This document shows positions 20,291 through 35,882 of a stretch of 57,208 bases of DNA, piece after piece. Under the pieces are notes generated by a model, which was given only the letters and a program-made list of their open reading frames with translations, did no database searches and was not told the DNA's origin. The number at the start of each line of letters is the position of its first letter. The stretch's first letter is position 1. The position numbers and the translations under genes were made by a program. The stretch comes from Oscillospiraceae bacterium. Its GTDB lineage: Bacteria > Bacillota > Clostridia > Oscillospirales > Oscillospiraceae. Where the stretch lies: positions 1 to 57,208 of the forward strand of contig WQUY01000005.1 of NCBI GenBank assembly GCA_009781855.1, written 5' to 3'.

Positions 20291-21361
20291 ATGATGAAAA
20301 AAATACTCTCGTTGTTTTTAGTTTTGATTATGGTTATTGCCTTTGTGGCAGGGTGTGCAAATGACACTGCACCACCCACGGTTACACCCGAACCCTCAAC
20401 ACCGCCTGCATCCGGTACTCCGGCAGAGCCGACGGTACAAGAACGGCCGACCGGGCCGGTGATGATCAGCGTTTCGGAGCTTCAGGGCATGATGGGCGAT
20501 GACAACCTGATACTCATCGGCGCGATCAACCCAACTGCGGCTTTAGTACCGTTTTCAAATGCGGCAAATCCAATCAGAGGCTCACTTCTGGTCTGGACAG
20601 ACGACATTTACGGCCCCGATCCTGATGCATTATCTCCCGAATTACAATTTGGCAGAATGCCGCTTGCACAAATGGAAAATCTGCTCTCAAGAGCGGGCAT
20701 AACAGGAGACTCTATAATAGTGGCTTACCATTCAGATGCTGCGGCAGTCGGCGCAAGGCTTGCCTGGCATCTATATATGTTGGGACTCAATGTCAGATTT
20801 TTAGATGGCGGTGTACCTGCATGGCGTGCGGCTAACGGAGCAACAGGCTCCAGCAATAGACTGAGTAGCCAAGCCGTACAAAATGATTTCAGAGCGCCGG
20901 ATTTCGACCCCTCAGTGAATAATGTGACAATCTATCAGGTCATCGAAGCAGCGCAAAATCCTGATGAGTGGGTAATCATCGACACACGTTCAGATGGCGA
21001 ATACAATGGCGAACGTGTCGGAGCATCATCGGGTGGATTTGGCACAGGCAGGATAAAAGGCGCTGTTCATGTTGAGTGGGCCAGAGCATACGATAATGAC
21101 GGTTTGCGCCTTCCGGAAGCACAACTCAGAGAACTCTATGGCTTTATAGGCGACAGAAATGCTATTGTCTTTTGTCAGGGTGGGATTAGATCGTCATATA
21201 CATGGATATTGTTAAGAGACCTTGGATTTAACGTATGGAATTATGATGGGTCGTGGATTGAGTGGTCATATGCAGCGTCTACGGCCGGCAATTTTGCAGA
21301 CAGAGCACTCGTTTTGGAGCTGACAGAGCTGTGGTCTGATAACGGCGGAGTAATATCGTAA
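20291..21361 (+). CDS. Rhodanese-like sulfurtransferase lipoprotein
   Basis: 356 residues: a lipoprotein signal (MMKKILSLFLVLIMVIAFVAGC, lipid-bearing Cys), a Pro/Thr-rich linker, then two rhodanese domains. The first (about 55-195) has YHSDAA where the active Cys should be and is probably structural. The second (about 210-345) has WVIIDTRSDGEY and the active loop FCQGGIRSSY with its catalytic Cys. Rhodaneses carry sulfur, and some can carry selenium, as a persulfide or perselenide. It is anchored outside the cell. The ATG at 20291 follows AAAGGAG. The order rhodanese, redox proteins, TVP38 and YnjBCD-like transporter recalls E. coli ydjXYZ-ynjABCDE, where ynjE is a rhodanese. Confidence 0.88.
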   Translation: MMKKILSLFLVLIMVIAFVAGCANDTAPPTVTPEPSTPPASGTPAEPTVQERPTGPVMISVSELQGMMGDDNLILIGAINPTAALVPFSNAANPIRGSLLVWTDDIYGPDPDALSPELQFGRMPLAQMENLLSRAGITGDSIIVAYHSDAAAVGARLAWHLYMLGLNVRFLDGGVPAWRAANGATGSSNRLSSQAVQNDFRAPDFDPSVNNVTIYQVIEAAQNPDEWVIIDTRSDGEYNGERVGASSGGFGTGRIKGAVHVEWARAYDNDGLRLPEAQLRELYGFIGDRNAIVFCQGGIRSSYTWILLRDLGFNVWNYDGSWIEWSYAASTAGNFADRALVLELTELWSDNGGVIS

Positions 21362-21366
21362 CAAGA

Positions 21367-21385
21367 GGGCGGCATATTGCCGCCC
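21367..21385. repeat. GC-rich palindrome after the rhodanese gene
   Basis: GGGCGGCA and TGCCGCCC form a perfect 8-bp hairpin around a TAT loop, 6 nt after the stop. It shares its core with the hairpin at 28942-28964. It lacks a T-run, so it may be a repeat element, a weak terminator, or both. Confidence 0.65.
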
Positions 21386-21430
21386 CTACGTTCTTTACAC
21401 GCTACACTAACATATAGGGAGGCATTCTTC

Positions 21431-23215
21431 ATGGCTTATGAAAAAAGCATAATGGACAAGGTGCGCGAAATCGCACAAGATTGCCAGGGCGGACACATGT
21501 CTTTCTGCAATGCGCGTTGCCCGATGCATACCGATGCAACAAGGTATATTGAGCAAATCAGAGAGAACAAACTGACTGATGCGGTCAAAACAATCCGGGA
21601 AAAGTTGTTTCTGCCGGGTACTCTGGGGAGGGTATGCGCCCACCCTTGTGAACTCGAATGTAGAAGAAACACAGAATACGGGCAGCCCATTTCTATCGCG
21701 GCGCTTAAACGGTATGCAGCAGACAAGGCCGACAGCGAGGAGCTTTGGGATATTACAAAGAAATCATCCACCGGGAAAAAAGTCGCAGTAATCGGAGCAG
21801 GCCCTGCTGGGGCACAAGCTGCAATCGACATTTCGCGAGAAGGACATGCAGTAACAATATACGAAAAGCTGACTGTGGTTGGCGGAATGATGCGTGTGGG
21901 CATACCTGAATACCGCTTGCCACGCAACCTTATTGACTTTGAATACAGCTACCTGACCAAACTTGGCATTGAGTTTAAACTCGGAGTAGAGGTTGGTAAA
22001 GACATCAGTTTTGATGAGCTGAGCAACAACTACGATGCAGTGGTGCTTGCAAACGGGGCGCACAAGAGCTTTGTGCCTCCGGTCAAAGGAATAGAAGCGG
22101 ATGGAATCACAAATGCAGTTGATTTCTTAAGAGGTGTTTCACTGGGTGAAAACGCTTTTGAAGTCAAAGGCAAAGTGCTTGTAATAGGCGGCGGAGATGT
22201 CACAATGGATTGTGCACGCACCTCTGTTCGTCTTGGGGCGCAGAGTGTTACGGTGGCTTCACTTGAATGTGAGGTAGAGCTACCTGCTTCGGGACATGAG
22301 CAGCACGAGGCCAGGCAAGAAGGCGTTTTTATAAACTGCGGCTGGGGAGCGGAAGAAATTCTGAGTGAAGGCGGCAGCGTAAAGGCAGTTGTGTTCAAAC
22401 AATGCCTCTCAGTTTTTGATGCCGAAGGCAGATTTGCTCCGACATATGGAGAAGAAAAGCTAACTATTCAGTGCGATACATTGATTTTTGCCACAGGCCA
22501 AATGGTTGTTGATGCGGCAAATGGAGCTTTAGATCAAGGTGCCGGAGGCAGATACATTGTAGATAGAAACACCCTATCCACAAAGATAGATAATGTGTTT
22601 GTAGCAGGGGATAGCGCCGGAGGAACAATCGTGGTCGAAGCTATGGCGCTTGGACGTAAGGCTGCGATTTCAGTAAACAGATTACTCTCTGGTGTGGATT
22701 TGACAAAGGATAGAGATTTTAAAAGCGAATATGATTTCAAATCAGAGCTTGACATTCCCTTGCCAAAAGATGTAAAAGATACGCCGAGAAATTACACAAA
22801 AATGCTTGACCCGATAGAGCGCACAAAGAGTTTCGTCGAATGTGATTTGGGCTTTGATGAAAGCATTGCACGAGCTGAAAGCGAACGTTGCTTAAAGTGC
22901 GAATGTAAGGAATGTATGAAAGAGTGCATCATGTTCAATGATTTTACACTCTATCCCGGAGCGTTGTTTAAAAAATTCCTAGAAGATGGAGATATGGAGC
23001 CAATCATTGCATATTCATGTAACATGTGTGATCAATGTACGCTCGTCTGTCCCAAGGAGTTTAAGTTTGCCGAACTATTTGGCGCTATGCGCAAGGATAT
23101 GGTCAAAGCAAATCACGGTCAGTCGCCGATGCCAGGGCATAAGGCAATCAACATGCATCAGAAATTGGGCTTCTCAAAGCTCTTTACTGTAAGAATCAGA
23201 GGGGGTAGCAAATAA
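21431..23215 (+). CDS. FAD-dependent Fe-S oxidoreductase, GltD-like
   Basis: 594 residues. The N-terminal part has Cys-rich Fe-S motifs (CNARCPMH; GRVCAHPCELECRR) as in GltD, DPD and NfnB-type proteins. An FAD Rossmann motif VIGAGPAGAQAA near residue 120 and an NAD(P) motif VIGGGDVTMDCAR near 250 follow, then the second FAD motif NVFVAGDSAGG. The C-terminal 110 residues add cysteines in CLKCECKECMKEC and CNMCDQCTLVCPKEF. This tail probably couples it to the CCG-domain protein encoded next, with 1-nt overlap. It should carry electrons between NAD(P)H and Fe-S partners. The ATG follows GGGAGG. Its electron partner and substrate are unknown. Confidence 0.87.
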   Translation: MAYEKSIMDKVREIAQDCQGGHMSFCNARCPMHTDATRYIEQIRENKLTDAVKTIREKLFLPGTLGRVCAHPCELECRRNTEYGQPISIAALKRYAADKADSEELWDITKKSSTGKKVAVIGAGPAGAQAAIDISREGHAVTIYEKLTVVGGMMRVGIPEYRLPRNLIDFEYSYLTKLGIEFKLGVEVGKDISFDELSNNYDAVVLANGAHKSFVPPVKGIEADGITNAVDFLRGVSLGENAFEVKGKVLVIGGGDVTMDCARTSVRLGAQSVTVASLECEVELPASGHEQHEARQEGVFINCGWGAEEILSEGGSVKAVVFKQCLSVFDAEGRFAPTYGEEKLTIQCDTLIFATGQMVVDAANGALDQGAGGRYIVDRNTLSTKIDNVFVAGDSAGGTIVVEAMALGRKAAISVNRLLSGVDLTKDRDFKSEYDFKSELDIPLPKDVKDTPRNYTKMLDPIERTKSFVECDLGFDESIARAESERCLKCECKECMKECIMFNDFTLYPGALFKKFLEDGDMEPIIAYSCNMCDQCTLVCPKEFKFAELFGAMRKDMVKANHGQSPMPGHKAINMHQKLGFSKLFTVRIRGGSK

Positions 23216-23979
23216 TGTCCAGAAAAGCGTTTTTACCCGGATGTGCGCTGCCGTCGTACAGCCCGGAGAATGTTTCACAATGTTTAAAATATCTCAAAAC
23301 GAAATTTCCGGATCTTTCAGTTGTCCAAAAGTGCTGTGGGAAACCCACTTCGGCAGTTGGCCAGGCAGCGCTCTTTAGTAAGCGCTTCGCCGGTCTTGTT
23401 GAAGATATAAAGTTTTGCGGAGCCGACGAGGTGATTGTCGCTTGCCAGAGCTGTATGAAAGTACTCAAAGGCTGTAATGATTACAAGACGACTTCGCTTT
23501 GGGAGCTTTTTCCTCAAATCGGTCTGCCACCGGAAATGGTCGGAAAGGCAAAAGACAGCGATGCGGTATTTTCGGTACAAGATTCCTGCTCAGTGCGTGA
23601 CTATACCGGAATTCACGATGGCATCCGTTGGATACTTACAGAGCTTGGATACAAATATGAGGAGCCGGAAAGAACACGTGCCACAACACGTTGCTGTGGG
23701 TTTGGCGGCATGGTTGGTCCTGCCAATCCGGATGTGGCATTTAGGGTCATGAAGCGTAGAGTAGATGATTTTAAAACGCCTTACATTGTCACATATTGCG
23801 CGGCTTGTCGCCAGTCCATGCTCAAAGCAGGCGGCAAGGCATGGCATATTCTTGATTTGGTTTTTGGTGATGTGGTTTATGCAAATACAGCGCCGCCGGA
23901 GGACGTCCTGGCAAGCCCGGTCAAAGCGTGGAAAAATAGGTATAGAAGCAAGAGTCTTATTAAGAAAGCGTATAAATAG
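23215..23979 (+). CDS. HdrB-like CCG-domain protein
   Basis: 254 residues with two cysteine-rich (CCG) domains: LPGCALPSYSPEN, KCCGKPTSAVG and CQSCMK in the first half; VQDSCSVRD, RCCGFGGMVG and CAACRQSM in the second. In heterodisulfide reductase subunit B, GlpC and LutA such domains hold unusual 4Fe-4S clusters at disulfide or quinone-linked sites. It overlaps the upstream FAD/Fe-S gene by one base, so the pair is likely one enzyme. A disulfide, polysulfide or similar thiol substrate is possible given the rhodanese nearby, but that is inference. Confidence 0.85.
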   Translation: MSRKAFLPGCALPSYSPENVSQCLKYLKTKFPDLSVVQKCCGKPTSAVGQAALFSKRFAGLVEDIKFCGADEVIVACQSCMKVLKGCNDYKTTSLWELFPQIGLPPEMVGKAKDSDAVFSVQDSCSVRDYTGIHDGIRWILTELGYKYEEPERTRATTRCCGFGGMVGPANPDVAFRVMKRRVDDFKTPYIVTYCAACRQSMLKAGGKAWHILDLVFGDVVYANTAPPEDVLASPVKAWKNRYRSKSLIKKAYK

Positions 23980-23992
23980 AGCAGTCTTTGTA

Positions 23993-24014
23993 GGGAGACC
24001 GCCCCCGGTCTCCC
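23993..24014. repeat. GC-rich palindrome (GGGAGACCG hairpin)
   Basis: GGGAGACCG (23993-24001) and CGGTCTCCC (24006-24014) make a perfect 9-bp stem with a CCCC loop, just after the HdrB-like gene. It begins with TAGGG and ends with CCCACTA, like other GTAGGG-type intergenic hairpins. No T-run follows, so full termination is uncertain. Confidence 0.6.
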
Positions 24015-24044
24015 ACTATAGAATTGAGAGTTGGAGGGATAAAA

Positions 24045-24866
24045 ATGCTTGATCATGATGAAAAAAAAGTAGAAGCTGAGATTCAGGATGATATAGAAAC
24101 GGTTGTAGAGAGCAGCACAGAAGATATTTCCGAGGGTGCCGAAGCTGCGCTGGAGGAAGAAACAGCAAAAGCCGCACCGGAAAAGAAAAAGGGTGGACTG
24201 CTGAAAATAATCATATTCGTTGTAATCATCGCAGCCGTGGTCATTGCTGCATATGCGACAGGTCTTGTTGATAGAATACAGGACATCAGAGCGATGCAGG
24301 AATGGTTCAGTGGATTCGGATTCTGGGGATATCTCATCTTTGTGGTGGTATATGTATTGGCTGCCTCGTTTATGCTGCCTGCATTTCCGTTTACACTCGT
24401 AGCCGGTATTGTGTTTGGCCCAATTTTAGGTGGTATACTTTCATTGGTCGCTGCGACAATAGGCGCTGCCGTAGCCTTTATCGTTGCGCGTTATGTTGCA
24501 CGTGATACAATCGTAAGCAAGTTTGGAAGCAGTCCGCTATTTAAGAAAATAGACGACGGGCTCAGACAAAATGGGGTAAGCTTTCTTATACTCACGCGTC
24601 TCGTGCCGATATTCCCATACAATGTGCAAAACTATATATATGGCCTAACACCGATTAAATTAGCCACGTTTGCACTGGTTTCGTTTATTTGCATGGCACC
24701 GGGAGGATTTATATATGCATTTATGGCTGGAATAATAGTTGAGGAAGGCATTACTCCAATGTTGGCAGTCTACTTTGCAGGTGCTGGTGTAGCATTGTTC
24801 CTCGTGTCGCTGATACCGAAATACATTGCCAAGAAAAAAGGCATTAAACTCAAAGACGACGAATAA
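24045..24866 (+). CDS. TVP38/TMEM64-family membrane protein
   Basis: 273 residues. An acidic N-terminal tail (about 1-55) precedes a first helix (IIIFVVIIAAVVIAAYATG) and a DedA-like SNARE-associated domain of about five helices, with FPFTLVAGIVFGPILGG and the re-entrant segment LTRLVPIFPYNVQNYIYGLT. This matches TVP38/YdjX/YdjZ proteins. Their function is poorly known, with roles suggested in lipid scrambling or in selenite and metal handling. ATG 24045 has TTGGAGGGA upstream. In E. coli, YdjX and YdjZ are encoded next to ynjABCDE, as here. Confidence 0.88.
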   Translation: MLDHDEKKVEAEIQDDIETVVESSTEDISEGAEAALEEETAKAAPEKKKGGLLKIIIFVVIIAAVVIAAYATGLVDRIQDIRAMQEWFSGFGFWGYLIFVVVYVLAASFMLPAFPFTLVAGIVFGPILGGILSLVAATIGAAVAFIVARYVARDTIVSKFGSSPLFKKIDDGLRQNGVSFLILTRLVPIFPYNVQNYIYGLTPIKLATFALVSFICMAPGGFIYAFMAGIIVEEGITPMLAVYFAGAGVALFLVSLIPKYIAKKKGIKLKDDE

Positions 24867-24879
24867 GGAGCTGCATAAC

Positions 24880-26118
24880 GTGAAGAAAACTATAGTAATA
24901 ATACTTACGATACTTATGACATTGACGTTATTAGCTGGTTGCGCACGCAATCAGTCGGGTGCAGCAGACGAGATAGATTTCAGCGACTTTGATGCTGTTT
25001 TAGAAGCGGCGAGGGGCACAACCGTGAATTTCTATGGTTGGGGAGGAAGTGCCGCAACGAATGCTTGGCTTGACAATGTAGTGGGATCCACGCTATATGA
25101 GCAATACGGCATCAGATTAAATAGAGTGCCGATGGACATTGATGCCATACTCAATAAACTCATGGGCGAGATGCACGCAGGGGTGGATAGCGGAGATATA
25201 GACGTCGTATGGATTAACGGAGAGAATTTTTACACAGCAAAGAATGCCGGACTGCTATTTGGCCCTATAACACACTATGTGCCGAATTTTGCGGTGTATC
25301 TCAACCCGGATGACGCAGATCTACATTATGATTTCGGCACGCCGATTGAAGGGATGCAAGTTCCTTACGGCAGAGCTCAACTTGTATTCATGGGTGATAC
25401 AGCTGTTTTAGACAGCTTCCCAACATCAGCTCAGGAATTGCTTGAACTTGCAAGAAGATATCCCGGCAGGATAACTTACTCAGCGCCTCCTGATTTTACC
25501 GGCAGTGCATTTGTTCGGAATATGCTTTATGAAATTGTTGGGTTTGAGGCGATTTTCAACGCCCCACGTGATGAAGAGGCAATATATGAAATTATCAGAC
25601 CAGGTCTGGACTTTCTGGTTGAGCTCAAACCATATTTATGGCAGGAAGGCCGAACCTATCCCGTTGATGCACCTGCACTTCAGCAGATGTTCATTGATGG
25701 ATTGGTGCTCATGAATGTCAGCTATTCACCGCTCCACGTTGCACAGATGATATTCTCAGGAGAATATCCTGAAACAGTACAGACTTTTGTGTTTGAGAAT
25801 GGAAACATTGGCAACACGCATTATATGGCGATACCATATAATGCGCCCAATAGAGCCGGTGCGATAGCGCTTATCAATCACATCATCAGTGCTGAGATGC
25901 AGATAACAAAGTATGACGCGAGAAACTGGGGAGATTTGCCGGTGTTCGATGTTCAGCGACTCACACCGCAGCAGCGGGAATTGTTGGACGCAATTGACAA
26001 CGGTATCGGCATCCTTTCTCCTGAAGTTTTGTTTGAGCATCGGCTACCTGAAGTTCAGGCATACAAAATCCCGATAATCGAGAGACTTTGGGTTCAGCAC
26101 GTACTGCACGCAGGATGA
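24880..26118 (+). CDS. ABC transporter substrate-binding lipoprotein, YnjB-like
   Basis: 412 residues: a lipoprotein signal (VKKTIVIILTILMTLTLLAGC), then an extracellular binding protein with TTVNFYGWGGSAATNAWLD, NKLMGEMHAG, DVVWINGENFY and a mid-domain PTSAQELLELARRYPGRITYSAPPDFTGSAFVR, the pattern of the YnjB/thiamine-binding-like family. The ligand is unknown. GTG 24880 has AAGGAG 8 nt upstream and begins the signal peptide; upstream in-frame starts fall inside the TVP38 gene. It overlaps the first permease by 4 nt (ATGA). Confidence 0.88.
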   Translation: MKKTIVIILTILMTLTLLAGCARNQSGAADEIDFSDFDAVLEAARGTTVNFYGWGGSAATNAWLDNVVGSTLYEQYGIRLNRVPMDIDAILNKLMGEMHAGVDSGDIDVVWINGENFYTAKNAGLLFGPITHYVPNFAVYLNPDDADLHYDFGTPIEGMQVPYGRAQLVFMGDTAVLDSFPTSAQELLELARRYPGRITYSAPPDFTGSAFVRNMLYEIVGFEAIFNAPRDEEAIYEIIRPGLDFLVELKPYLWQEGRTYPVDAPALQQMFIDGLVLMNVSYSPLHVAQMIFSGEYPETVQTFVFENGNIGNTHYMAIPYNAPNRAGAIALINHIISAEMQITKYDARNWGDLPVFDVQRLTPQQRELLDAIDNGIGILSPEVLFEHRLPEVQAYKIPIIERLWVQHVLHAG

Positions 26119-27002
26119 ATCGGTTAAGAACAAGAGCAGTCCCGTATATGCTCCTTGGGCCATTTTTTCTGATTATGGGAATCATATTTGTCGGTGGTTT
26201 GATCCAGGCTCTGGTACAGAGCCTGGGTTACCTCCCGGCGTTTGGAATGGATAGCGTTTCTCTGGAGTATTACAGACGAGTGCTTACAGATTTTCGGTTT
26301 ATTTCATCGCTAAGACACACGTTTTATATTGCGCTAACGTCCTCGGCACTCTCTGTGGCCTTGGGCGTATTTGTTGCGTTTTTAGTACATAAGACAAAGC
26401 GTAGCAACAAATTTTCATTTACATTACTGAGAGTACCCATCGTCATTCCGCATATCGTGGTTATTATCATGATATTCCATATTTTCTTTCAGACAGGGAT
26501 ATTATCACGATTTGCATTTGCCATTGGTTTGATTGAAAGCGCGCATGACTTCCCACTTCTGATTTTTGATCGAGGCGGTGTGGGCGTTATCATTGTCTAT
26601 TTATACAAGCAAATACCCTTTGTAATGCTGATGGTCATTTCGATATCGAGAAATATAGACAGCAAATACTTTCAGGTAGCTGAAAATCTTGGGGCAAGCC
26701 CGTTTCAAATCATGACGAGGATTACTTTGCCGCTACTTGCACCTACGATTCTTTCGGCATTCCTGTTTTGTTTTGCTTTTGGATTTGGGGCATTTGAGGT
26801 GCCATTTTTATTGGGAAGCCCTGCAAGACAAACGCTGCCGATTCTTGCATTCATTGAATATACAAGTCCGGTACTTGATGACCGTCCAGCGGCAATGGCG
26901 ATAAATGTAATTATATCCGTGATTTCCTTGATTATGATTTGGGTTTATGCAAAAGTGCTGAGCATTTTAACAAAACGAGGGATGGAAGGTGCGATTGTCT
27001 GA
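26115..27002 (+). CDS. ABC transporter permease, YnjC-like (first)
   Basis: 295 residues with about six transmembrane helices. The EAA-type loop near 195-215 (AENLGASPFQIMTRITLPLLAP) binds the ATPase. The ATG at 26115 overlaps the stop of the binding-protein gene. YnjC of E. coli is one long protein with two permease halves; here the two halves are separate genes (26115 and 27043), as in most PotB/PotC-type importers. The imported substrate is unknown. Confidence 0.88.
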   Translation: MNRLRTRAVPYMLLGPFFLIMGIIFVGGLIQALVQSLGYLPAFGMDSVSLEYYRRVLTDFRFISSLRHTFYIALTSSALSVALGVFVAFLVHKTKRSNKFSFTLLRVPIVIPHIVVIIMIFHIFFQTGILSRFAFAIGLIESAHDFPLLIFDRGGVGVIIVYLYKQIPFVMLMVISISRNIDSKYFQVAENLGASPFQIMTRITLPLLAPTILSAFLFCFAFGFGAFEVPFLLGSPARQTLPILAFIEYTSPVLDDRPAAMAINVIISVISLIMIWVYAKVLSILTKRGMEGAIV

Positions 27003-27016
27003 TGCGCAGCTTATAT

Positions 27017-27030
27017 TCCCGTCAGCTTAA
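27017..27030. repeat. Half copy of the TGACGGGAGT palindrome
   Basis: TCCCGTCAGCTTAA, the right half of the dispersed repeat, lies in the 40-nt gap between the two permease genes. The left arm is degraded (CAGCTTATAT). It is too short and imperfect for a stable hairpin, so transcription should pass through. Confidence 0.5.
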
Positions 27031-27042
27031 CCGGAGGTTCAG

Positions 27043-27849
27043 ATGAGAAAAAAACAGCCCATATATAATGCTCTGTTTTATGTTTTTGTTGCTATCAGTT
27101 GTGCTCCGCTGATTATGCTGGTAGTGCTTACATTCAGCACATTCTGGCCGTATCCCTCGCTACTGCCGGAAGTAGTGTCGCTGGATTACTACGCACATGT
27201 GTTTATAGAAAACAGGCAAACTTTGATGGCTGTAGTAACCAGTATATTGCTAGCATTTTTTGTAGCATTTGTTACACTGATAATCGCTATTCCCGCCGGA
27301 AAAGCAATTGCATGCTATAGTTTCAAGGGAAAAGGGTTTGTTAAAATGCTCGTGCTGGTACCCCTCATAGTGCCCTCAGTGGCGGTAATCATGGGCATCC
27401 ACGTGACAATGATAAGGATTGGGCTAACGGGCACATTTTTTGGGGTCGCTCTGATACAAACGCTTTTTGCAATGCCATATGCTATACGGATTATGACGAA
27501 TGTTTTTGAGATAGTCGGCAAAGGGCTGGAACAACAAGCGTCAGTACTCGGTGCGGGAACTGCGACGATTTTTATTAAAGTGACCTTACCCAGAATCATG
27601 CCGGGTATCCTCTCCGCCGGAGTCCTGAGCTTTACAGTATCAATCGCCCAATACATCACGACCTTTATCATTGGGGGAGGGCGGATTATTACAGTGACGA
27701 TGCTGATTATTCCGCATATTCAGAGCAGAGAACATCACATAGCGGCGGTTTACAGCATTCTGCTTATCGTATCAGCTATGATTTCATTGTATTTAACAGA
27801 AAAAATCGTGAGACGGTATTATGATATGGATAATGTAGTATATGTATAG
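27043..27849 (+). CDS. ABC transporter permease (second)
   Basis: 268 residues, six predicted helices, and an EAA loop QASVLGAGTATIFIKVTLPRIMPG near residues 165-190. It resembles PotC/ThiP-type permeases and partners the permease at 26115. GGAGG is 6 nt before the ATG. Together with the binding protein and the ATPase it makes a complete importer. Confidence 0.87.
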   Translation: MRKKQPIYNALFYVFVAISCAPLIMLVVLTFSTFWPYPSLLPEVVSLDYYAHVFIENRQTLMAVVTSILLAFFVAFVTLIIAIPAGKAIACYSFKGKGFVKMLVLVPLIVPSVAVIMGIHVTMIRIGLTGTFFGVALIQTLFAMPYAIRIMTNVFEIVGKGLEQQASVLGAGTATIFIKVTLPRIMPGILSAGVLSFTVSIAQYITTFIIGGGRIITVTMLIIPHIQSREHHIAAVYSILLIVSAMISLYLTEKIVRRYYDMDNVVYV

Positions 27850-27860
27850 GGGTTGAAATA

Positions 27861-28898
27861 TTGACAAGTATGCATGTTGAAAATGTAAATAAATCTTTTG
27901 GAAACAACCACGTGCTTAAAAATATCTCATTGAGTGTACAAAGCGGTGAATTTGTTTCTGTGTTGGGCCCATCGGGTTGCGGCAAAACTACATTGCTGAA
28001 ATTGATTGCAGGGCTGGAGATGCAGGATAGCGGCCATGTCTATATTGGCGGAGCTTGCTGCGATAATGTACCGGCAAGAAAAAGAGGTGCTGTTATTGTA
28101 TTTCAGGATTTTGCACTTTTTCCCCATATGACAGTTAAGCAGAATATTGATTTTGGGCTTGCGGTAAAAAAAATCAGTCGCTCGGAGCGAGAGAGAAAAA
28201 TCATGGCGATGCTCGATGTAATGCAAATTAGCGATAAAGCCGAATTCTACCCCAGAGCGCTTTCCGGTGGACAGAAACAGCGTGTGGCGCTTGCCAGAGC
28301 CTGCGTTTTGGAACCCAGAGTATTGCTGCTTGACGAGCCGTTTTCGAACCTTGATCCGGGTTTAAGGGACGACATGAGAGAGTTTGTGTCAAAACTTCAG
28401 CGTGAACTGGGTATTACTACGATATTGGTCACTCATGACAAAGAAGAGGCATTCATGCTTTCCGGGCGTGTAGCAGTAATCATTGATGGCTGTTTACAGC
28501 AATATGACACACCAGAAAATATATATAAAAAGCCACACACTGTATTGGTATCTGACTTCATCGGAGAGGCAAATTATATTAGCGGTATGATAAGCAATTA
28601 TCATTTTTCTTGTGCGCTTGGAGATTTTGATGCTGCCGAGTTAGTCGATGGTGAGGCCAAGTTAATGCTCAGATATGACCAACTCATTATAAGCAATAGT
28701 AAGGGTATGCCTTGTCGGATTATTTCAAAGGTGTATAAAGGGAATGTAACAACCTATCGAGTAGAGATTGAAAAATCAGAAACATTGGGTTTGCCAGAGG
28801 CTCTGACACTTAAGATAAATTCATCAGACAGTAGTTTTGAACCCGGTCACAAAGCTTTTATAAGAGTAGCGGACAGGGCCGGTCATGTGTTGAGATAG
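27861..28898 (+). CDS. ABC transporter ATP-binding protein, YnjD/PotA-like
   Basis: 345 residues. Walker A GPSGCGKTTLLKLIAG, Q-loop VFQDFALFPHM, signature ALSGGQKQRVALARA, Walker B LLLDEPFSNLD and the H-loop VTHDKEEAF are all present, followed by a C-terminal regulatory part (from about 240), as in PotA, FbpC and CysA. It drives the importer encoded upstream. The TTG at 27861 has AGGGG 8 nt upstream and is preferred over ATG 27870, which is 17 nt away. Confidence 0.9.
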   Translation: MTSMHVENVNKSFGNNHVLKNISLSVQSGEFVSVLGPSGCGKTTLLKLIAGLEMQDSGHVYIGGACCDNVPARKRGAVIVFQDFALFPHMTVKQNIDFGLAVKKISRSERERKIMAMLDVMQISDKAEFYPRALSGGQKQRVALARACVLEPRVLLLDEPFSNLDPGLRDDMREFVSKLQRELGITTILVTHDKEEAFMLSGRVAVIIDGCLQQYDTPENIYKKPHTVLVSDFIGEANYISGMISNYHFSCALGDFDAAELVDGEAKLMLRYDQLIISNSKGMPCRIISKVYKGNVTTYRVEIEKSETLGLPEALTLKINSSDSSFEPGHKAFIRVADRAGHVLR

Positions 28899-29016: not shown

Positions 29017-29889
29017 CTAGACGATATTACGCAGTCCGGAGAACGCGTCGTAGCATTTGTATACATGCTCGATATAACCAGCGCTATCTTTTAGTGTCGG
29101 AATGTCAACCAGAATGCGCTGACCTTGCCCAATAAGATGACCTGTTTTCATAGACTCGGGATCAGGAGAGATTTCGACTTCATTTTGATTAAATAACTCC
29201 AGGTGCAAGATAGCTGCCGCCGCATATATATCCCACTTATAGATTCCGTCATGGCCAAAATATTCTTTTTCTCTTGCAAACCAATATTGTCCTTGATTGC
29301 AGAGCCATTGCAAGAAAGATGCGTCGTTTTGTTTGAGTTTGTCAAACCGTTCTTTGGTGAATAATGCATCAAGACAAACGTTTCCCGTGGCAATCTTGAT
29401 GGACTTTGCCTTTGTCAGCACAGTATATGCCGCAATGCTGTTGCAAGAGAAATTCAATTCATTAAGCTGTTTGCCCATAATAATAAGAGATTCCGTAACT
29501 CCCCCCATCATACTGAGCGCGTTGACTCTATCAAAGAACTCAGCATCGAGCAACCAGGCATGGTAGAGATTGGTTAGCGATCCCATAGCGACAATCGAAA
29601 CCTCACCGGGGTGCTTTTTTGTGGCTTCAATCAAAAATGCAGCAGCCTCGTTTTTGGCTGCGTCTTCAGCGTGTCCAGGGTATACCGGAATCTGATTCAT
29701 TCCTATTTGTTTCATGAATGATATGGTGTTGGGGGTGACAACTTCAAGCGTATTGTTTCCAAATGTCGTAGTCACGCCAAGCAAATCGCATTTTCCGGTT
29801 CCTAACGCATAAATTATTGCAAGGCCGTCATCTAAGTCACATCCCTCAACTCCAAAAGTATTATCGCAGTCAATAATTATCTTTTTCAT
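29017..29889 (-). CDS. Nucleoside hydrolase-family protein
   Basis: 290 residues of the inosine-uridine nucleoside N-ribohydrolase fold. The calcium-binding aspartate cluster appears as DCDNTFGVEGCDLDDGLAI, a longer spacing than the usual DTDPGIDD, followed by TTTFGNNTLEVVTPNT, VAMGSLTNLYHAW, MMGGVTES and a late KWDIYAAAAI with the last conserved Asp. It would cleave a base from a ribonucleoside or act on a related glycoside. It is the last gene of the selA operon and overlaps the GT2 gene by 4 nt (ATGA). Its true substrate in this setting is unknown. Confidence 0.85.
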   Translation of the reverse strand: MKKIIIDCDNTFGVEGCDLDDGLAIIYALGTGKCDLLGVTTTFGNNTLEVVTPNTISFMKQIGMNQIPVYPGHAEDAAKNEAAAFLIEATKKHPGEVSIVAMGSLTNLYHAWLLDAEFFDRVNALSMMGGVTESLIIMGKQLNELNFSCNSIAAYTVLTKAKSIKIATGNVCLDALFTKERFDKLKQNDASFLQWLCNQGQYWFAREKEYFGHDGIYKWDIYAAAAILHLELFNQNEVEISPDPESMKTGHLIGQGQRILVDIPTLKDSAGYIEHVYKCYDAFSGLRNIV

Positions 29890-30617
29890 ATTTTACCATC
29901 CTTCTCTTTGTGGTTACTATAACATCTTGCTATTTCCTCTATGTTGTCACCTTTGCGAAATTTACGCTGTAGGGATTGCATCATCATCATGGTCCTAAAA
30001 TGCCCTCCGGAAGAGAAGCGTCGTTCGGAAGTGGTGATTGTGCCATCCGCAATGCGCAGTGCATAACCGGCACGCTTGACATCCATAGACAATTTATAAT
30101 CTTCCATCAGAGGTATGGGTGCATACCCGCCGAGCTGGTCAAAGAGCATTCTTTTTATAAAAATTCCCTGATCTCCAAATGCGATTTTCCGGGTTTTGAC
30201 GCGGATATTCGACATAAATGCCATATAAAACATCAGTGGATGCATACTATCAAACTTTAAGCGGAAGCACCCGTAGCTATAGCCTTTTGAAATCACCTCC
30301 TGAATCTTAGACAGAGCGTCTGGAGGAGGTATGGAATCAGCGTGGAGAAACCAGAGTATGCTTCCATGTGAAACAGAAGCGCCATAATTCATTTGGTTTG
30401 CGCGACCTTTATCCGGTGAATGGAAGTAACACCGGGAGGACCATTCTGAGATTTGGTCAGCTGTATTGTCAGTACTTCCTGAATCAACAAACACAATTTC
30501 GCACTGATTCTTTAAGGGATTTAGATTGTGAAGCAGCTGGTCAATGCAACATGCCTCATTGTAGACCGGAACTATAACAGAAATACTGTGAGCGCAATCG
30601 CTGCCGGCATCATTCAC
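29886..30617 (-). CDS. GT2 glycosyltransferase, TIGR04283-type
   Basis: 243 residues of a GT-A, family 2 transferase: ISVIVPVYNEA, EIVFVDSGSTDNT, SPDKGRANQMNYGA, LWFLHADSIPP (the metal-binding D-x-D-like site) and LMEDYKLSMDVKRAG. The KGRANQMN segment and short length are typical of the group named TIGR04283, called arsenosugar-biosynthesis-type glycosyltransferases. GTG 30617 has GGAG 7 nt upstream and overlaps the kinase-like gene. Partnership with the DUF2064 protein (TIGR04282-type) encoded nearby is known for this pair. The product is not known. Confidence 0.85.
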   Translation of the reverse strand: MNDAGSDCAHSISVIVPVYNEACCIDQLLHNLNPLKNQCEIVFVDSGSTDNTADQISEWSSRCYFHSPDKGRANQMNYGASVSHGSILWFLHADSIPPPDALSKIQEVISKGYSYGCFRLKFDSMHPLMFYMAFMSNIRVKTRKIAFGDQGIFIKRMLFDQLGGYAPIPLMEDYKLSMDVKRAGYALRIADGTITTSERRFSSGGHFRTMMMMQSLQRKFRKGDNIEEIARCYSNHKEKDGKI

Positions 30618-31614
30618 TAAAATACTCCATTCTAATCTTTTCCAGAAATTCCGAAGTTATGTATTGTTTAATTTTCTCAAAGGTGTAGTCATCCTTTAGA
30701 ATACGCTCTGGGCTTTGGTATTCGACCCATGCCATAGCGCACCATGTAATACCTCTCAGGCAGTTCATTTTCAAATAAGGAGATGTTGTTTCCCATAACA
30801 ATGAAGGGTCGTTATACCGTACCGAAGTTTTACAATAGAGCTCTATGAAGTGCATTATTTCAGCCATTGACAGAACAGTTTCTGTTTTCCAAAGTGTAGT
30901 CGTGGGTGCAAGGAAGTGGCCAAGATCCTGACCGGGCGATGCAAAGAGCGGTTTCTCCCAATCCACCAAATAAGTTATATGGCTTTCATTAACAAGAAAA
31001 TTGCCCGAGTTTAATTCAGTATTCACAAGACAACGCCCGTTGCAGGAGCGGTCGCATTGAAGGATTTCGTTGCCGTATTCAAGCAAAGACGAAATCATTT
31101 TCTTTATTTCAGGTGCTGCGCGTTCGCTGTCAAAAAAATGCGTGACCATAGCGTGGCACTCATCCAATATAGCGCCTAGTGGATTTGCAGGGGAAATCAG
31201 AGCATGTCCGTCCGGGACATCAAGATTGTGGATGTCGGCCAGACAAGCTGCTGCTGCGGGCAAATCAGATTCATATCTGAGCGGTCGCCCGGGAAGAAAA
31301 TTCATAACAAGGAATCCATAAGGCATGGCAGTCTTTGTATCATCGATAAAAAGTGGCGTCGGAGTTCTTCCGGATGGCTTAAGAAGCTCAAGTGCTTCGT
31401 ACTCATAGCGCACTTGATTCGCCAGATGCATCTGGCTACCCATCGGAACTCTCAAAACCAGCAATGCTCCTGTTTTTGGGCAGGGAAAAGTATAATTGAC
31501 GTTATATTCACCATGTCCCAGCAGCTTGAAATCAACCCAATCTCCCAAGCCGATATTCAGCCAATTGCAAAATGATTCCGATTGGGTAATAGAAGATACA
31601 TCGATTATTTCCAT
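30610..31614 (-). CDS. APH-fold kinase-like protein with altered catalytic loop
   Basis: 334 residues of the aminoglycoside phosphotransferase/choline kinase superfamily. The N-lobe shows LLGHGEYNVNYTF and VLRVPMGSQ; the C-lobe has the loop CLVNTELNSGNFLV followed by YLVDWEKPLF. The family loop is normally H-G-D-x-x-x-x-N with a catalytic Asp; here it reads N-T-E, while the metal-binding Asn and the D-W-E are kept. It may be a weak or altered kinase, or an acceptor-specific enzyme. ATG 31614 follows GAGGAA and starts 1 nt after the DUF2064 stop. The phosphate acceptor, perhaps a sugar, is unknown. Confidence 0.78.
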   Translation of the reverse strand: MEIIDVSSITQSESFCNWLNIGLGDWVDFKLLGHGEYNVNYTFPCPKTGALLVLRVPMGSQMHLANQVRYEYEALELLKPSGRTPTPLFIDDTKTAMPYGFLVMNFLPGRPLRYESDLPAAAACLADIHNLDVPDGHALISPANPLGAILDECHAMVTHFFDSERAAPEIKKMISSLLEYGNEILQCDRSCNGRCLVNTELNSGNFLVNESHITYLVDWEKPLFASPGQDLGHFLAPTTTLWKTETVLSMAEIMHFIELYCKTSVRYNDPSLLWETTSPYLKMNCLRGITWCAMAWVEYQSPERILKDDYTFEKIKQYITSEFLEKIRMEYFSE

Positions 31615-31615
31615 T

Positions 31616-32296
31616 TTATATTCGTTCCTCATTTTCTAAGATTGTAAGCAGCTTTTTTGTTTCCGGTGCGATATCAGGATGCTCATGCTTCAGTGTCCTA
31701 TTGAGCCTTTCAAGATCACAAGGTTCATCAATGTCAAACATGGTATAACCCATTCCGATTTTTCTGCCTGCGCATTTTGCTGCCGATATAGTCTCTTCAA
31801 GCACAGAGGACACGCCATATTGCTTAAGATGAAAAAGTGCAGCGCACGGCTCTTTGAGTCCGATGAGATAATATCCCCCATCCTCAGTTGGGTTTATAAC
31901 GACATCATGAGAATCAAGTATTTTTAAAGCATCCTTTATGGCGCTTGTTTTGAGGTGGGGAATGTCGCTGCCGATAAGCAAGCATTTTTCATACCCCATG
32001 TCAAAAATATCACAGAAAGCGCTATGCATTTTGTCTCCGAGGCTTTCACCACGTTGTGGGATAAACCTGTGAGCCAACGGCAAAAGCAGTTTAAGCGTTT
32101 CGAGATCACCATCTGGTAAATAACAAACGGTAACATCATAATCAAAATCTGAACATTGCAAAGCAAGAAAAACATCAAGCAGAAAAGCCTCATGCAGACA
32201 TTTGCACTCCTCTCCGGTCAGTAGAGGCATCAATCTTGTTTTAGTCTTTCCAGCAACCGGAATCCTGGTAAAAAGAATAATCGCGTTATTGCTCAA
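31616..32296 (-). CDS. DUF2064 nucleotidyl/glycosyltransferase-like protein (TIGR04282-type)
   Basis: 226 residues of the DUF2064 group, a GT-A fold related to MobA/CofC nucleotidyltransferases. It opens with AIILFTRIPVAGKTKTRLMPLLTGEE, the G-K-T-K-T-R-L motif of the family, then LIGSDIPHLKTSAIKDAL and NPTEDGGYYLIGL. It commonly accompanies a TIGR04283-type GT2, as here. It may activate a sugar or related acid. TTG 32296 has GAGGTG 9 nt upstream. The gene lies 44 nt after serS. Confidence 0.85.
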   Translation of the reverse strand: MSNNAIILFTRIPVAGKTKTRLMPLLTGEECKCLHEAFLLDVFLALQCSDFDYDVTVCYLPDGDLETLKLLLPLAHRFIPQRGESLGDKMHSAFCDIFDMGYEKCLLIGSDIPHLKTSAIKDALKILDSHDVVINPTEDGGYYLIGLKEPCAALFHLKQYGVSSVLEETISAAKCAGRKIGMGYTMFDIDEPCDLERLNRTLKHEHPDIAPETKKLLTILENEERI

Positions 32297-32340
32297 ATAA
32301 CAACACCTCTGTATGCTTGTCGGGCAAACATTATCCGTCG

Positions 32341-33585
32341 CTACAATTCACTGCTGATAACATCACAGCCCATAAAAGGAATAAGCACATCCGGAATCCT
32401 CACGGAGCCATCGGGTTGCTGATATGTTTCAATGATACTCAGCCACACTCTGGGTGTCGCAATCCCGGAGCCGTTCATTGTGTAAGCGAATTTTTTCTTG
32501 CCATGTACATCGACATATTTAATTTGTGCTCTGCGTGCCTGATAATCAGAAAAATGACCTACAGAAGAGACTTCGAGCCATTTTTTTACACCGGGTGAAT
32601 AAACCTCAATATCGTAGCATCGTGCATATTTGTCTCCCATTTCACCGGTGCAAAGGTCAACGAGCCTATATTTGAGCCCAAGGTTTTTGATAACGCTTTC
32701 ACAATCTTTGAGCAGGCTGGATAATTCAGACTGCACATCTTTGGGTTCCACGATTTTCAATAGCTCGACTTTATGAAACTCATGGATCCGCTGTAATCCT
32801 CTCGTATCACGTCCTGAAGCGCCAGACTCACGGCGAAACGCCAAAGTGTAACCCATGTAACGTTTAGGAAGAGTTCCTGGAGAAAATGTTTCTCCGGCAA
32901 ATGCCGCAGTCATAGGCACCTCTGCTGTAGGGATTAGCCAAAGGTCGTCCTTTTCGCATTTATATTGTTCACCTGCAAATTTCGGTAAATGCCCGGTGAA
33001 AGTCAGTGCTTCGGTTGATACTAAATGAGGCGGCAGTATCTCGGTATACTTAGGCTCATTTAGAGAAAGTCCATAATTAACGAGGGCGCGCAGCAACTTT
33101 GCCCCCATGCCCCTGAGCAAACTAAACCCTGAACCGGATATCTTGCTTGCAGCTTGTGTGTCCATAATACCCAGGCTTTCAGCAATATCCCAATGCGGCA
33201 AAGGATTTGCAGTTTGACAAATATAATGATTGTCAGATTCGTATAAAATGACATTGCAGTGCGCATTAAGACCAATCGGGGCTTGGGGATCAGGAAAGTT
33301 AGGAACGTCAAGCAGATGTCGGTTCGTGTGATTTTCCAGTGCTTTTAGGTCTTTTTGAGTATTTATAATAAATTTACGCAGTCTGCGCTTTTCATCTGCA
33401 GTAAAAGAATCATCGGTGCTTGAGCAATTGCGCTGATGGTTTAGCTCATTAAGACGAGTTTTCTGCCTACGGATTTCTGTCAGCAGTGTATAAAGAGCAT
33501 CTATGTATTCGATATCATAACCCTTTTTTTCAAGTTCACGCTTAACATATTGTTTGTCTGAGAGGATTAATTTATAGTCAATCAT
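32341..33585 (-). CDS. serS: Seryl-tRNA synthetase
   Basis: 414 residues, normal for bacterial SerRS (about 425). The N-terminal coiled-coil arm runs from about 25 to 100. The class II core has motif 2 FRRESGASGRDTRGLQRIHEF and motif 3 NGSGIATPRVW, with the serine-site TAEVPM. ATG 33585 has GGTGGAG 9 nt upstream and begins MIDYKLI, like other SerRS proteins; ATG 33603 would give a longer start. It overlaps selA by 8 nt, so it is translated with it. SerRS charges tRNA-Sec with serine, the first step before SelA. Whether this is the only SerRS of the cell cannot be told from this window. Confidence 0.93.
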   Translation of the reverse strand: MIDYKLILSDKQYVKRELEKKGYDIEYIDALYTLLTEIRRQKTRLNELNHQRNCSSTDDSFTADEKRRLRKFIINTQKDLKALENHTNRHLLDVPNFPDPQAPIGLNAHCNVILYESDNHYICQTANPLPHWDIAESLGIMDTQAASKISGSGFSLLRGMGAKLLRALVNYGLSLNEPKYTEILPPHLVSTEALTFTGHLPKFAGEQYKCEKDDLWLIPTAEVPMTAAFAGETFSPGTLPKRYMGYTLAFRRESGASGRDTRGLQRIHEFHKVELLKIVEPKDVQSELSSLLKDCESVIKNLGLKYRLVDLCTGEMGDKYARCYDIEVYSPGVKKWLEVSSVGHFSDYQARRAQIKYVDVHGKKKFAYTMNGSGIATPRVWLSIIETYQQPDGSVRIPDVLIPFMGCDVISSEL

Positions 33586-34981
33586 GGGAGATATCTCCAC
33601 CATCGGCCTTGCCCTCTAACTCAATTAAAGCTTCGCTTATGACATCCTCATCGCCTGGGAGAAGGGTTCTCACTGATACTAATATAGCCTCATCTTGAAT
33701 CCTGATAATTATGGGAGTTTTGTACGCCCTGAGACCTTGCTCTAGTGCGTTGACACTTAAAGTCGAGGGTTTAATAGATACAGCCCAGCCGGGAAGCGGA
33801 ACATTCGGCAAAGAGCCACCTCCGGTTTCGTCCATTACCTCAACAGCATCGACGCGACAATTGGTCAAAGAAGCCTTTAACCGTGTTGTAAATGACTCAG
33901 CACGTAGTTTGAGATTATCGGATTTTGAGAAAAGCATTGCAAGTACAGGGATGCGTGTCGCTGCTTCATCTGGATATCTATATTGTCTCAAAGCGGACTC
34001 CAAAACAGATAATGTCAGCTTGTCGGGACGTAAAGCGCGGGTTAGCGGATGTTTTTTCATAGCGCTTATTAAATCGGAGCGACCGGCGATTATACCGGCC
34101 TGTGCGCAGCCCATGAGTTTGTCGCCAGAAAAACATATGATATCTGCCCCGGCTTTAAGCCCACTCATCGCGGTTTCGCCTGCATCAAATCCATATGGTT
34201 GCGTGTCAATAAGAAAACTTGAACCTGCATCATATACTACAGGCCGTCCGACAGATGCGCCATACTCGCTGAGTTCTGAAATGCTAACGGACTGGGTAAA
34301 TCCAACTATTTCATAATTGCTTGTGTGGACTTTCAAAAGAAGTTCTGCATTTTTATGCTCCACAGCATCCGCATAGTCGGAGAGCTTTGTTTTGTTTGTT
34401 GAGCCGATTTCTATAAGCTCCGCTCCGCTTTGCATTATAATTTCAGGGACCCTGAAAGAACCGCCGATTTCAACGAGTTCTCCGCGAGAAATTGCAACGT
34501 TCTTACCCGCTGCGAGCGTGGCCAAAATTAAAACCATAGCCGCAGCATTGTTGTTGACAACAAGTGCAGCTTCGGTTTCGATGATTTCACATATCAAATT
34601 TTCCACATGAGTGTAGCGGCTGCCACGCTTGCCGGTTTTTAAATCATATTCAAGGTTGTTATACCCCTCACAAGCAATCAGAGCCTCTGCCAGCATTTCT
34701 TTTCCTAGAGGGGCACGGCCGAGATTTGTGTGCAATACAACACCTGTGGCGTTTATAACTCTACGCAAGTTGCTTGACTCAGTTGATAATCTTTCGAATA
34801 TAAGTCCGGCACATTCGTCAAGACTGGGCGCATTTGAAATTGCTCCGGACAGTATCTGATGGCGAAGATCATCCAAAATCGCGCGAGCAACGGACTTTAC
34901 GCGCTCGTTTCCCATATTGACGAATATGGGGTGTTCCGTCAGACTATTCATGTTTGGCAAGCTGCTCAGAAGATCATTCAT
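33578..34981 (-). CDS. selA: L-seryl-tRNA(Sec) selenium transferase
   Basis: 467 residues, as usual for bacterial SelA. It is a PLP enzyme that changes Ser-tRNA(Sec) to Sec-tRNA(Sec) with selenophosphate. Key parts are NATGVVLHTNLGRAPLG, YDLKTGKRGSRYTHVE, NNNAAAMVL and the PLP lysine in CFSGDKLMGCAQAGII; the usual G-G-P-Q after the lysine is G-C-A-Q here. GGAG lies about 8 nt before the ATG. It heads the six-gene minus-strand operon. selB, selD and the tRNA(Sec) gene are not in the window, so the machinery must be completed elsewhere. Confidence 0.94.
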   Translation of the reverse strand: MNDLLSSLPNMNSLTEHPIFVNMGNERVKSVARAILDDLRHQILSGAISNAPSLDECAGLIFERLSTESSNLRRVINATGVVLHTNLGRAPLGKEMLAEALIACEGYNNLEYDLKTGKRGSRYTHVENLICEIIETEAALVVNNNAAAMVLILATLAAGKNVAISRGELVEIGGSFRVPEIIMQSGAELIEIGSTNKTKLSDYADAVEHKNAELLLKVHTSNYEIVGFTQSVSISELSEYGASVGRPVVYDAGSSFLIDTQPYGFDAGETAMSGLKAGADIICFSGDKLMGCAQAGIIAGRSDLISAMKKHPLTRALRPDKLTLSVLESALRQYRYPDEAATRIPVLAMLFSKSDNLKLRAESFTTRLKASLTNCRVDAVEVMDETGGGSLPNVPLPGWAVSIKPSTLSVNALEQGLRAYKTPIIIRIQDEAILVSVRTLLPGDEDVISEALIELEGKADGGDISHD

Positions 34982-35234: not shown

Positions 35235-35882
35235 ATGAAAGATGATTTAGACAGTATTCGGATTGTTGAAGAAATAATGTTTGAACTTCGCGGACTTGCG
35301 CGCACCAGGGCTGTGTCCGTTTCTGACATTGTGCATGAGGCTTTGGGTGAATACCTTATCACCCACACAAACGCCGTCAATCTTTTTGATGTCATCCATA
35401 GCATTGAGCATACGATGAATAGGGCAGAACGTTTTGTAACAATCACCGATCCATCCGGGCTTGTCATTTTTATAAAAAGCCCCATAAGGTATCTATATCG
35501 CCCGGAGCTCAAATATGAAGTCAAAATTGTGCGCAACAACGAGGTTTCTGTAGGGAAGCTGAATATAATTATCAGGTCGCATGATATTGAAACAATAATA
35601 GGGTTCTCCGATTTTGTTAACCTGTGGATCGACTTGGAGTGCAAGTATTTGCAAAGCCGGGCTGAGCAAATAACCTATGAGACAGAATCAGGGTATTTTG
35701 GCAGACAAATCTTCTATCCTGAGGGAGGCGGGCAGCGGAATGGGCAGGCCGTAGGCGATGCCATCAGCGATTATATTTGTGTGTTTGATGAGCTGCTTAA
35801 ATATTATTTTACCCATCGTAATGGACGCGACATAGAAAAGCTCTTTTTTGATCGTCTAAGAGACGGAAAACTAACTATTTAA
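35235..35882 (+). CDS. Hypothetical protein, RHH-like N-terminus, upstream of clpB
   Basis: 215 residues, not recognised as a named family. Residues about 8-45 ([32 protein letters not shown]) look like a ribbon-helix-helix DNA-binding unit, which would fit a small regulator. The rest is mixed alpha/beta, soluble, with a Gly-rich [12 protein letters not shown] near residue 163. GGAG lies 8 nt before the ATG, and clpB follows 17 nt after its stop, so the two are co-transcribed. It may control or assist ClpB; that is inference from position only. Confidence 0.7.

Follow-up and report, generated by a model that had tools for sequence, protein, structure and literature searches.

The window analysed here, a stretch of 57,208 nucleotides (nt) from an Oscillospiraceae bacterium (contig WQUY01000005.1 of assembly GCA_009781855.1), is contig C5 of genome G000, an assembly of 134 contigs that totals 2.4 Mb and is 92% complete. 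In its list of open reading frames (ORFs), six minus-strand genes were found from position 34981 down to 29017 in the order selA, serS, TIGR04282, APH, TIGR04283 and a nucleoside-hydrolase-like gene, and the serS gene (hereafter serS2, encoding SerS2) was found to be a second, divergent copy. We read the run, with a probability of roughly 0.6, as two units lying side by side: unit A, selA-serS2, would be a selenocysteine (Sec) synthesis operon with its own seryl-tRNA synthetase (SerRS) supplying the selenocysteine tRNA (tRNASec) to SelA, followed by unit B, a separate import and sugar module. In favour of two units, the core of unit B occurs without sel genes at three other loci (L198, L201 and L202) and unit A occurs without unit B in genome G018. 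No description of a Sec-linked second SerRS was found in the literature searched, a search that lay largely outside subscription journals.

Gene content of the six-gene run

The six genes, all on the minus strand, were as follows.

33578..34981, minus strand: selA, L-seryl-tRNA(Sec) selenium transferase, 467 amino acids (TIGR00474, 524.9 bits, cut-off 267.9, residues 6-452)
32341..33585 (ORF opens at 33603), minus strand: serS2, second seryl-tRNA synthetase (TIGR00414, 366.7 bits, cut-off 301.65)
31616..32296, minus strand: TIGR04282 CofC-like / DUF2064 transferase (TIGR04282, 170.9 bits, cut-off 134)
30610..31632, minus strand: APH-fold kinase-like protein (PF01636, 47.6 bits, cut-off 23.2)
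29886..30617, minus strand: TIGR04283 family 2 glycosyltransferase (GT2) (TIGR04283, 239.6 bits, cut-off 182)
29017..29889, minus strand: nucleoside-hydrolase-like protein (PF01156 IU_nuc_hydro, 133.4 bits, cut-off 34.2)

An earlier note, made from the letters of the window, had described this packed run, and both the ORFs and the family names were found to hold in NCBIfam and Pfam. The APH and nucleoside-hydrolase-like proteins passed Pfam thresholds and reached no NCBIfam (equivalog) cut-off, and the sole solved-structure match of the TIGR04282 protein was 3cgx, a putative nucleotide-diphospho-sugar transferase. Overlaps of 17 nt (TIGR04282/APH), 8 nt (APH/TIGR04283) and 4 nt (TIGR04283/hydrolase) were found, and a gap of 44 nt separates serS2 from TIGR04282. 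The serS2 gene probably starts at the ATG at position 33585: a GGTGGAG stretch lies ahead of this codon, and the proteins of the relatives open with MID at the same place. The overlap with selA that had been noted earlier is therefore present, at 8 nt rather than 26. Two points were missing from the earlier account, namely the divergent, second-copy nature of serS2 and the association of the last four genes, in other genomes, with homologues of the genes on the plus strand at 23215-28898.

Linkage of serS2 to selA

In each of the three loci known (G000, G004 and G018), serS2 was found to follow selA immediately, with an 8-nt overlap in the window, an 11-nt overlap in G004 and an 8-nt gap in G018, and in each case a separate housekeeping SerRS is encoded elsewhere in the genome. 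A fourth SelA of the SerS2-linked clade, in G016, stops at a contig edge where serS2 would be, and SerS2 was not found in that genome. Coupled translation of selA and serS2 would balance the two enzymes.

The window SelA, the sole SelA found in the G000 assembly, was found to align to the SelA structure 3w1h over residues 3-455 with conservation of the SGDKL lysine, which we take to be the lysine that binds pyridoxal phosphate. In a SelA tree of 31 rows, several of them partial, the SerS2-linked SelAs formed a clade (99/99) nested within the SelAs of the family, including that of G020, which adjoins tRNASec and selB. A tRNA gene hidden near selA-serS2 was considered and rejected: none was found by ARAGORN in the window or in the corresponding loci of G018 (L063) and G004 (L064, limited by its contig end), and the window had no Rfam match at gathering scores.

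Two further observations were made beside selA genes. Directly upstream of selA2-serS2 on contig C76 of G004 (L064 4425-6260, minus strand) lies a rhodanese-like gene with S-layer homology (SLH) domains, which contains an in-frame TGA exactly where its G018 homologue (L063 2874-4760) has a cysteine; it is a candidate S-layer rhodanese selenoprotein, although the predicted folding of the 48 nt that start at the TGA was not exceptionally stable (z -0.5). Two genomes contain, at a distance of 3-6 kb from selA, a second candidate selenoprotein with the context GVGDUNCCSWWSS (L060 ~15100 and L067 ~4850, plus strand), whose TGA aligns with a cysteine in related sequences.

SerS2 as a divergent, probably working SerRS

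The TIGR00414 search of G000 recovered the canonical serS on contig C65 (399.8 bits), SerS2 (366.3 bits) and one match far below the cut-off. The SerS2 members were found to be 64-69% identical to each other and 34-36% identical to the canonical SerS of their hosts. A SerS2 query on 36 genomes gave close relatives (65-69% identical) only in G004 and G018, both of which also contain a canonical serS. Among 400 genomes of the family Oscillospiraceae, sampled from a larger group, SerS2 was found in three; a profile of these three members scores them at 854-869 bits and the best of six further matches at 316 bits. A scan of genome contigs with two peptide patterns, by which divergent members may be missed, recovered the two known relatives (the Oscillospiraceae metagenome-assembled genomes Co191P1bin82 and Emb289P1bin128), along with three matches that were distant, at 30-37%. 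The sample codes Co191 and Emb289 stand for Cornitermes sp. and Embiratermes neotenicus, both termites (PMC7024585).

In a SerRS tree of 36 rows, for which the program warns of long branches, SerS2 was monophyletic (100/100) on a long branch, and the hosts' canonical SerS grouped with their own genus. On the strength of this separate clade, a recent duplication of the hosts' own serS was rejected as the source of SerS2. A plasmid-borne SerS2 was also rejected: the best 10 of 97 plasmid-collection records were 39.1% identical and all of one species, and the single record inspected, in which serS is flanked by dnaX and recR, appears to be chromosomal.

The residues of SerRS motifs 2 and 3 and of the serine pocket (TAE, FRRE, F.KVE, and NGS with the following R), at positions assigned from SerRS structures, were intact in all three SerS2. 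The N-terminal tRNA-binding arm was present (PF02403, 36.1 bits, cut-off 28.2), with a tip about 11-12 residues shorter than in 10 distinct canonical SerS compared. An AlphaFold2 model from six sequences (confidence score pLDDT 71; an earlier model from 3 sequences was poor, at 40) had two long helices, spanning residues 26-57 and 63-91, and could be aligned with solved SerRSs across nearly the full length, at a best template-modelling (TM) score of 0.73 and a root-mean-square deviation of 6.6. Pairwise nonsynonymous divergence (dN) of serS2 was 0.22-0.27, with synonymous divergence (dS) saturated or, in one pair, 2.9; the dN of selA was 0.26-0.27. The low dN of serS2 with saturated dS, similar to that of selA, indicates a gene kept working under purifying selection.

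Such a gene could be a spare or inhibitor-resistant SerRS for ordinary tRNASer which stands beside selA by chance or through co-regulation. Precedents exist, since low-identity second SerRSs protect the bacteria that produce albomycin (PMC9437257) and duplication of synthetases is common (PMC4787780). We regard this explanation as rather unlikely: SerS2 adjoins selA in all three loci, the tip of its arm is reduced relative to the 10 canonical SerS compared, and a scan of 25 window proteins, for 10 of which the threshold was E <= 1e-10, brought out no conspicuous family of antibiotic clusters.

From its sequence and setting, SerS2 is instead predicted to charge tRNASec, and mainly tRNASec. It is known that Ser-tRNASec is made by SerRS (PMC7609411, PMC5330540, PMC1273633). 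In the operon as proposed, SerS2 would load serine onto tRNASec, SelA would swap the hydroxyl for selenium from the selenophosphate of SelD to give Sec-tRNASec, and SelB would carry the product to UGA. A stronger proposal, which we hold tentatively and at somewhat less than even odds, is that SerS2 is reserved for tRNASec. No other bacterial synthetase would then have been assigned earlier to the pathway of the 21st amino acid, and SerS2 might channel Ser-tRNASec to SelA and free Sec synthesis from the competition of tRNASer.

Sec machinery in the host genomes

The selD of G000 contained an in-frame TGA at the GGU site. Among the three SerS2 hosts, tRNASec was found in two (G004 and G018). In G018, a reading frame that starts like SelB (an N-terminal piece recognised by eye) was found about 25 nt behind tRNASec at the contig edge, and no SelB match was obtained there at E <= 1e-60. 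G004 contained two each of tRNASec, SelB, SelA and SelD, of which one set lies on contig C4 (L068; tRNASec, SelB, SelD and a divergent SelA) and the other is spread over C78 (tRNASec-SelB), C76 (SelA2-SerS2) and C37 (SelD). The two sets could be real or a contamination; two complete Sec operons are mentioned for one Photobacterium genome (PMC5330540).

Several observations weigh against a tRNASec-serving unit A. The evidence on SerS2 comes from only three loci of one genus, all in draft assemblies. In G000 (92% complete), neither SelB nor tRNASec was found over the cut-off, and the top matches of the tRNASec model were ordinary tRNAs; we infer an assembly gap. The selD of G018 was without an in-frame TGA and no selenoprotein was identified in that genome, and the Sec set on C4 of G004 was without SerS2. 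Finally, the tRNASec of G018 and that on C78 of G004 (both 99 nt, with G73) were almost the same as those of G020, G028 and G074 (completeness 96, 90 and 76), where SerS2 was not found. The canonical SerRS evidently can therefore serve this type of tRNASec, and the tRNA alone does not demand SerS2; an altered tRNASec forcing a new SerRS was considered and not seen.

A side observation concerns the tRNASec of the genus, which was found to be of two types, of 95-96 nt and of 97-99 nt (L050, L056 and L062 versus L172, L173 and L078), paired with different SelA clades. This suggests that some members of the genus have had their Sec system replaced.

The presence of the second Sec set on C4 means that SelA2-SerS2 of G004 could be free for another role, and SelA with SerS2 might then act on a different tRNA to give a modified aminoacyl-tRNA for alternative decoding or for a natural product. 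The CysRS*-SelC* systems and cited work on seryl-tRNA in valanimycin synthesis (PMC9437257) are precedents for such use. It is nevertheless very improbable: no tRNA gene was found in the window, L063 or L064, the SerS2-adjacent SelA of G018 is the only SelA found in that genome, where tRNASec and the SelB N-terminus are present, and the SerS2-linked SelA clade is nested among family SelAs that include the one beside tRNASec and selB in G020.

If the assignment of SerS2 to tRNASec is true, it would show how a dedicated Sec synthetase branch can arise, would allow a test of how SerRS distinguishes tRNASec from tRNASer, and could provide an orthogonal part for selenoprotein production.

Unit B as a probable import and sugar-activation module

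The four genes behind serS2 face seven plus-strand partners (two permeases counted) at 23215-28898. The plus-strand genes of this region, together with the two that precede them, were as follows.

27861..28898, plus strand: ABC (ATP-binding cassette) importer ATPase (PF00005)
27043..27849, plus strand: ABC importer permease 2 (PF00528)
26088..27002, plus strand: ABC importer permease 1 (PF00528)
24826..26118, plus strand: solute-binding protein, PRK11622 subfamily (NF008633/PRK11622, 444.1 bits, cut-off 203)
24024..24866, plus strand: VTT-domain membrane protein (PF09335, 89.1 bits)
23215..23979, plus strand: CCG-domain Fe-S protein (PF02754; NF045663 diclust_near_Sec, 202.1 bits, below the cut-off of 530)
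21377..23215, plus strand: pyridine-nucleotide-disulphide oxidoreductase with Fe-S domains (PF14691, PF07992; NF045663, 243.8 bits, below the cut-off of 530)
20297..21361, plus strand: rhodanese-like protein (PF00581, 74.4 bits)

TIGR04283 was found at E <= 1e-30 in 7 of the 400 family genomes. Outside the selA-serS2 loci this gave five loci (L198-L202), in which homologues of the window proteins were sought by tblastn at E <= 1e-6. In G427, G023 and G444, which belong to three genera, the TIGR04283 neighbourhood contained homologues of the window APH, TIGR04282, hydrolase-like, solute-binding, two permease, ATPase, VTT and CCG proteins. In L198, L201 and L202 the APH homologues near TIGR04283 were 46-50% identical, the solute-binding proteins 43-46% and the importer ATPases 42.5-43%, and homologues of the hydrolase-like and of both permease genes were present. 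VTT homologues were found in L198, L199, L201 and L202, and CCG homologues in all of L198-L202 (21-25% identical). The remaining two genomes were found to contain smaller sets: in G153 the TIGR04282/04283 pair is accompanied by genes of the CCG, VTT and rhodanese types, and in G318 by a CCG gene; in L199 a rhodanese-type gene adjoins the pair. The window oxidoreductase (21377-23215) and rhodanese (20297-21361) had no homologue in the five other loci at that threshold and are therefore not counted as members of the module.

The last four minus-strand genes are thus part of a module of about 10-11 genes, which selA-serS2 borders in two genomes, both from one genus. From its sequences unit B is probably a conserved import and sugar-activation module, in which a sugar-like group would be released, phosphorylated, activated and then transferred. 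The ABC transporter would import the substrate, the hydrolase would cleave a glycoside-like bond and the APH-type kinase would phosphorylate the product, after which the CofC-like enzyme would activate the group and the GT2 enzyme would transfer it; every catalytic step is proposed from family membership. A comparison of TGA read-through, which was noisy and mostly gave antisense frames, had no hidden selenoprotein of unit B standing out among the matches listed.

The earlier note had suggested instead a selenium-linked sugar or nucleoside pathway. In such a single pathway, the SelA/SerS intermediate would be turned into a selenium-containing sugar or nucleoside by the transferases, the kinase and the hydrolase. 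The shared operon is real in G000, and the order selA-serS2-TIGR04282-TIGR04283 recurs in G004, where the contig ends 250 nt past TIGR04283. However, selA, serS, selB and selD were all absent within 6-9 kb of TIGR04283 in the five other genomes of the seven, and the selA-serS2 locus of G018 was found to contain none of the four transferase, kinase and hydrolase genes, with no TIGR04283 at E <= 1e-30 genome-wide. Conservation of the neighbourhood beyond close relatives, the lack of which the earlier note had named as a refutation, was not found for selA plus the transferases, which were together only in two genomes, both of the window's genus. The single pathway is weakened by these loci holding only one of the two units, and we regard the placement of unit B next to selA as a local arrangement. 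No SenB or selenosugar synthase was present among the NCBIfam matches at E <= 0.001 for the six proteins, in a library that presumably holds a SenB model.

Two other regions of the window were noted: a 215-amino-acid ORF at 35235-35882, divergent from selA and without a Pfam or NCBIfam match at E <= 0.001, and a long stretch at 53580-57208 that, as read from the letters, looks coding, seems to continue to the end of the window and may encode a large secreted protein.

Selenium association of the TIGR04283 genomes

At the level of whole genomes, the TIGR04283 gene co-occurred with selD above chance; a co-occurrence no higher than chance, which the earlier note had named as a refutation, was not seen. 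selD was present in all 7 TIGR04283 genomes against 7 of 29 sampled genomes, and selD with an in-frame TGA in 7/7 against 1/29 (the position of the TGA within selD was checked in G000 only). Fisher tests gave p = 4e-4 for selD and 1e-6 for the TGA form, and 0.003 and 2e-5 when the 7 genomes were counted as 5 genera. The survey comprised 76 genomes, of which the 29 for comparison were taken in steps of ten from handles G150 to G430; that these are without TIGR04283 assumes that the SerS2 and TIGR04283 searches drew the same 400. The other 47 comprised the 7 TIGR04283 genomes, G016, G018 and G020 (selD in 3/3), 5 SelA-positive genomes (4/5) and 32 relatives without an over-cut-off SelA (5/32); the last three groups, chosen by SelA status, were excluded from the comparison. 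Genome-wide searches for SelA, SelB and tRNASec left out G153, G318, G427 and G444.

The association speaks for the single selenium-sugar pathway, as does the resemblance, below the cut-off, of the window Fe-S genes to diclust_near_Sec. Against it, the control Synechococcus elongatus was found to contain TIGR04283 without selD at E <= 1e-40, and the control E. coli contained selD without TIGR04283 at E <= 1e-30. Only 5 genera underlie the co-occurrence, and a shared anaerobic ecology may account for it. A single pathway is on balance improbable; there may be a looser association of the TIGR04283 module with selenium at genome level, and a selenium-sugar pathway remains hypothetical. With a TGA-form selD in all 7 host genomes, unit B is a lead for the function of TIGR04282/TIGR04283 outside arsenosugars.

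Concerning diclust_near_Sec itself, the two adjacent genes at 21377-23979 were found to match one early and one later part of the model NF045663 (759 positions), as if the protein were split, and weaker matches were found in L198 and L199.

Comparison with known systems

For unit B, a likeness was found in E. coli, where the ydj/ynj genes encode, as we take it, an ABC importer with a PRK11622-type binding protein (the PRK11622 subfamily being presumably the family of YnjB), a VTT protein and a rhodanese. Importer, VTT and rhodanese genes are shared with the window, whereas unit B adds TIGR04282/04283, APH and nucleoside-hydrolase-like genes. The partners of the arsenosugar pathway are ArsM/ArsS. 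Both window proteins of the TIGR04282/TIGR04283 'arsenosugar' pair lie over the curated cut-offs, and no ArsM/ArsS was found in a scan confined to 25 window proteins, with the best 25 matches of the longest lists considered. The E. coli genes ydjXYZ-ynjABCD and ynjE belong to the FNR regulon as listed in PMC3688515.

For unit A, one likeness lies in natural-product synthesis. In the valanimycin pathway a SerRS, named VlmL, reportedly feeds a downstream enzyme using Ser-tRNA, which would resemble the supply proposed here, although that pathway leads to a natural product and not to Sec. The seryl-tRNA supply for valanimycin goes back to Garg et al. 2008, as cited in PMC9437257. Other SerRS variants described are the albomycin-resistant second copy, the insect protein SLIMP and the carrier-protein ligases (PMC9437257). 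The second SerRS of the albomycin producers is, like SerS2, of low identity to the housekeeping enzyme (PMC9437257); unlike it, SerS2 has selA as its partner, and the scan of 25 window proteins gave no sign of an antibiotic cluster.

Dedicated synthetase families exist for all proteinogenic amino acids but selenocysteine (PMC9437257). The bacterial selA-selB-selC operons (for example that of G020; PMC5330540) contain the same SelA family, and the tRNASec of the sister genomes is of the G020/G028/G074 type; here, in contrast, a SerRS is coupled to selA, and selB and tRNASec of the sisters lie on another contig. Unlike the allo-tRNA and SelC* systems, no unusual tRNA gene was found beside SerS2 in the window, L063 or L064. 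The CysRS*-SelC*-SelB* systems (Mukai et al. 2017, according to PMC9437257 and PMC7609411) share with unit A the genetic coupling of a non-standard synthetase to Sec genes; there, a CysRS loads cysteine on a SelC-like tRNA, whereas here a SerRS is joined to selA.

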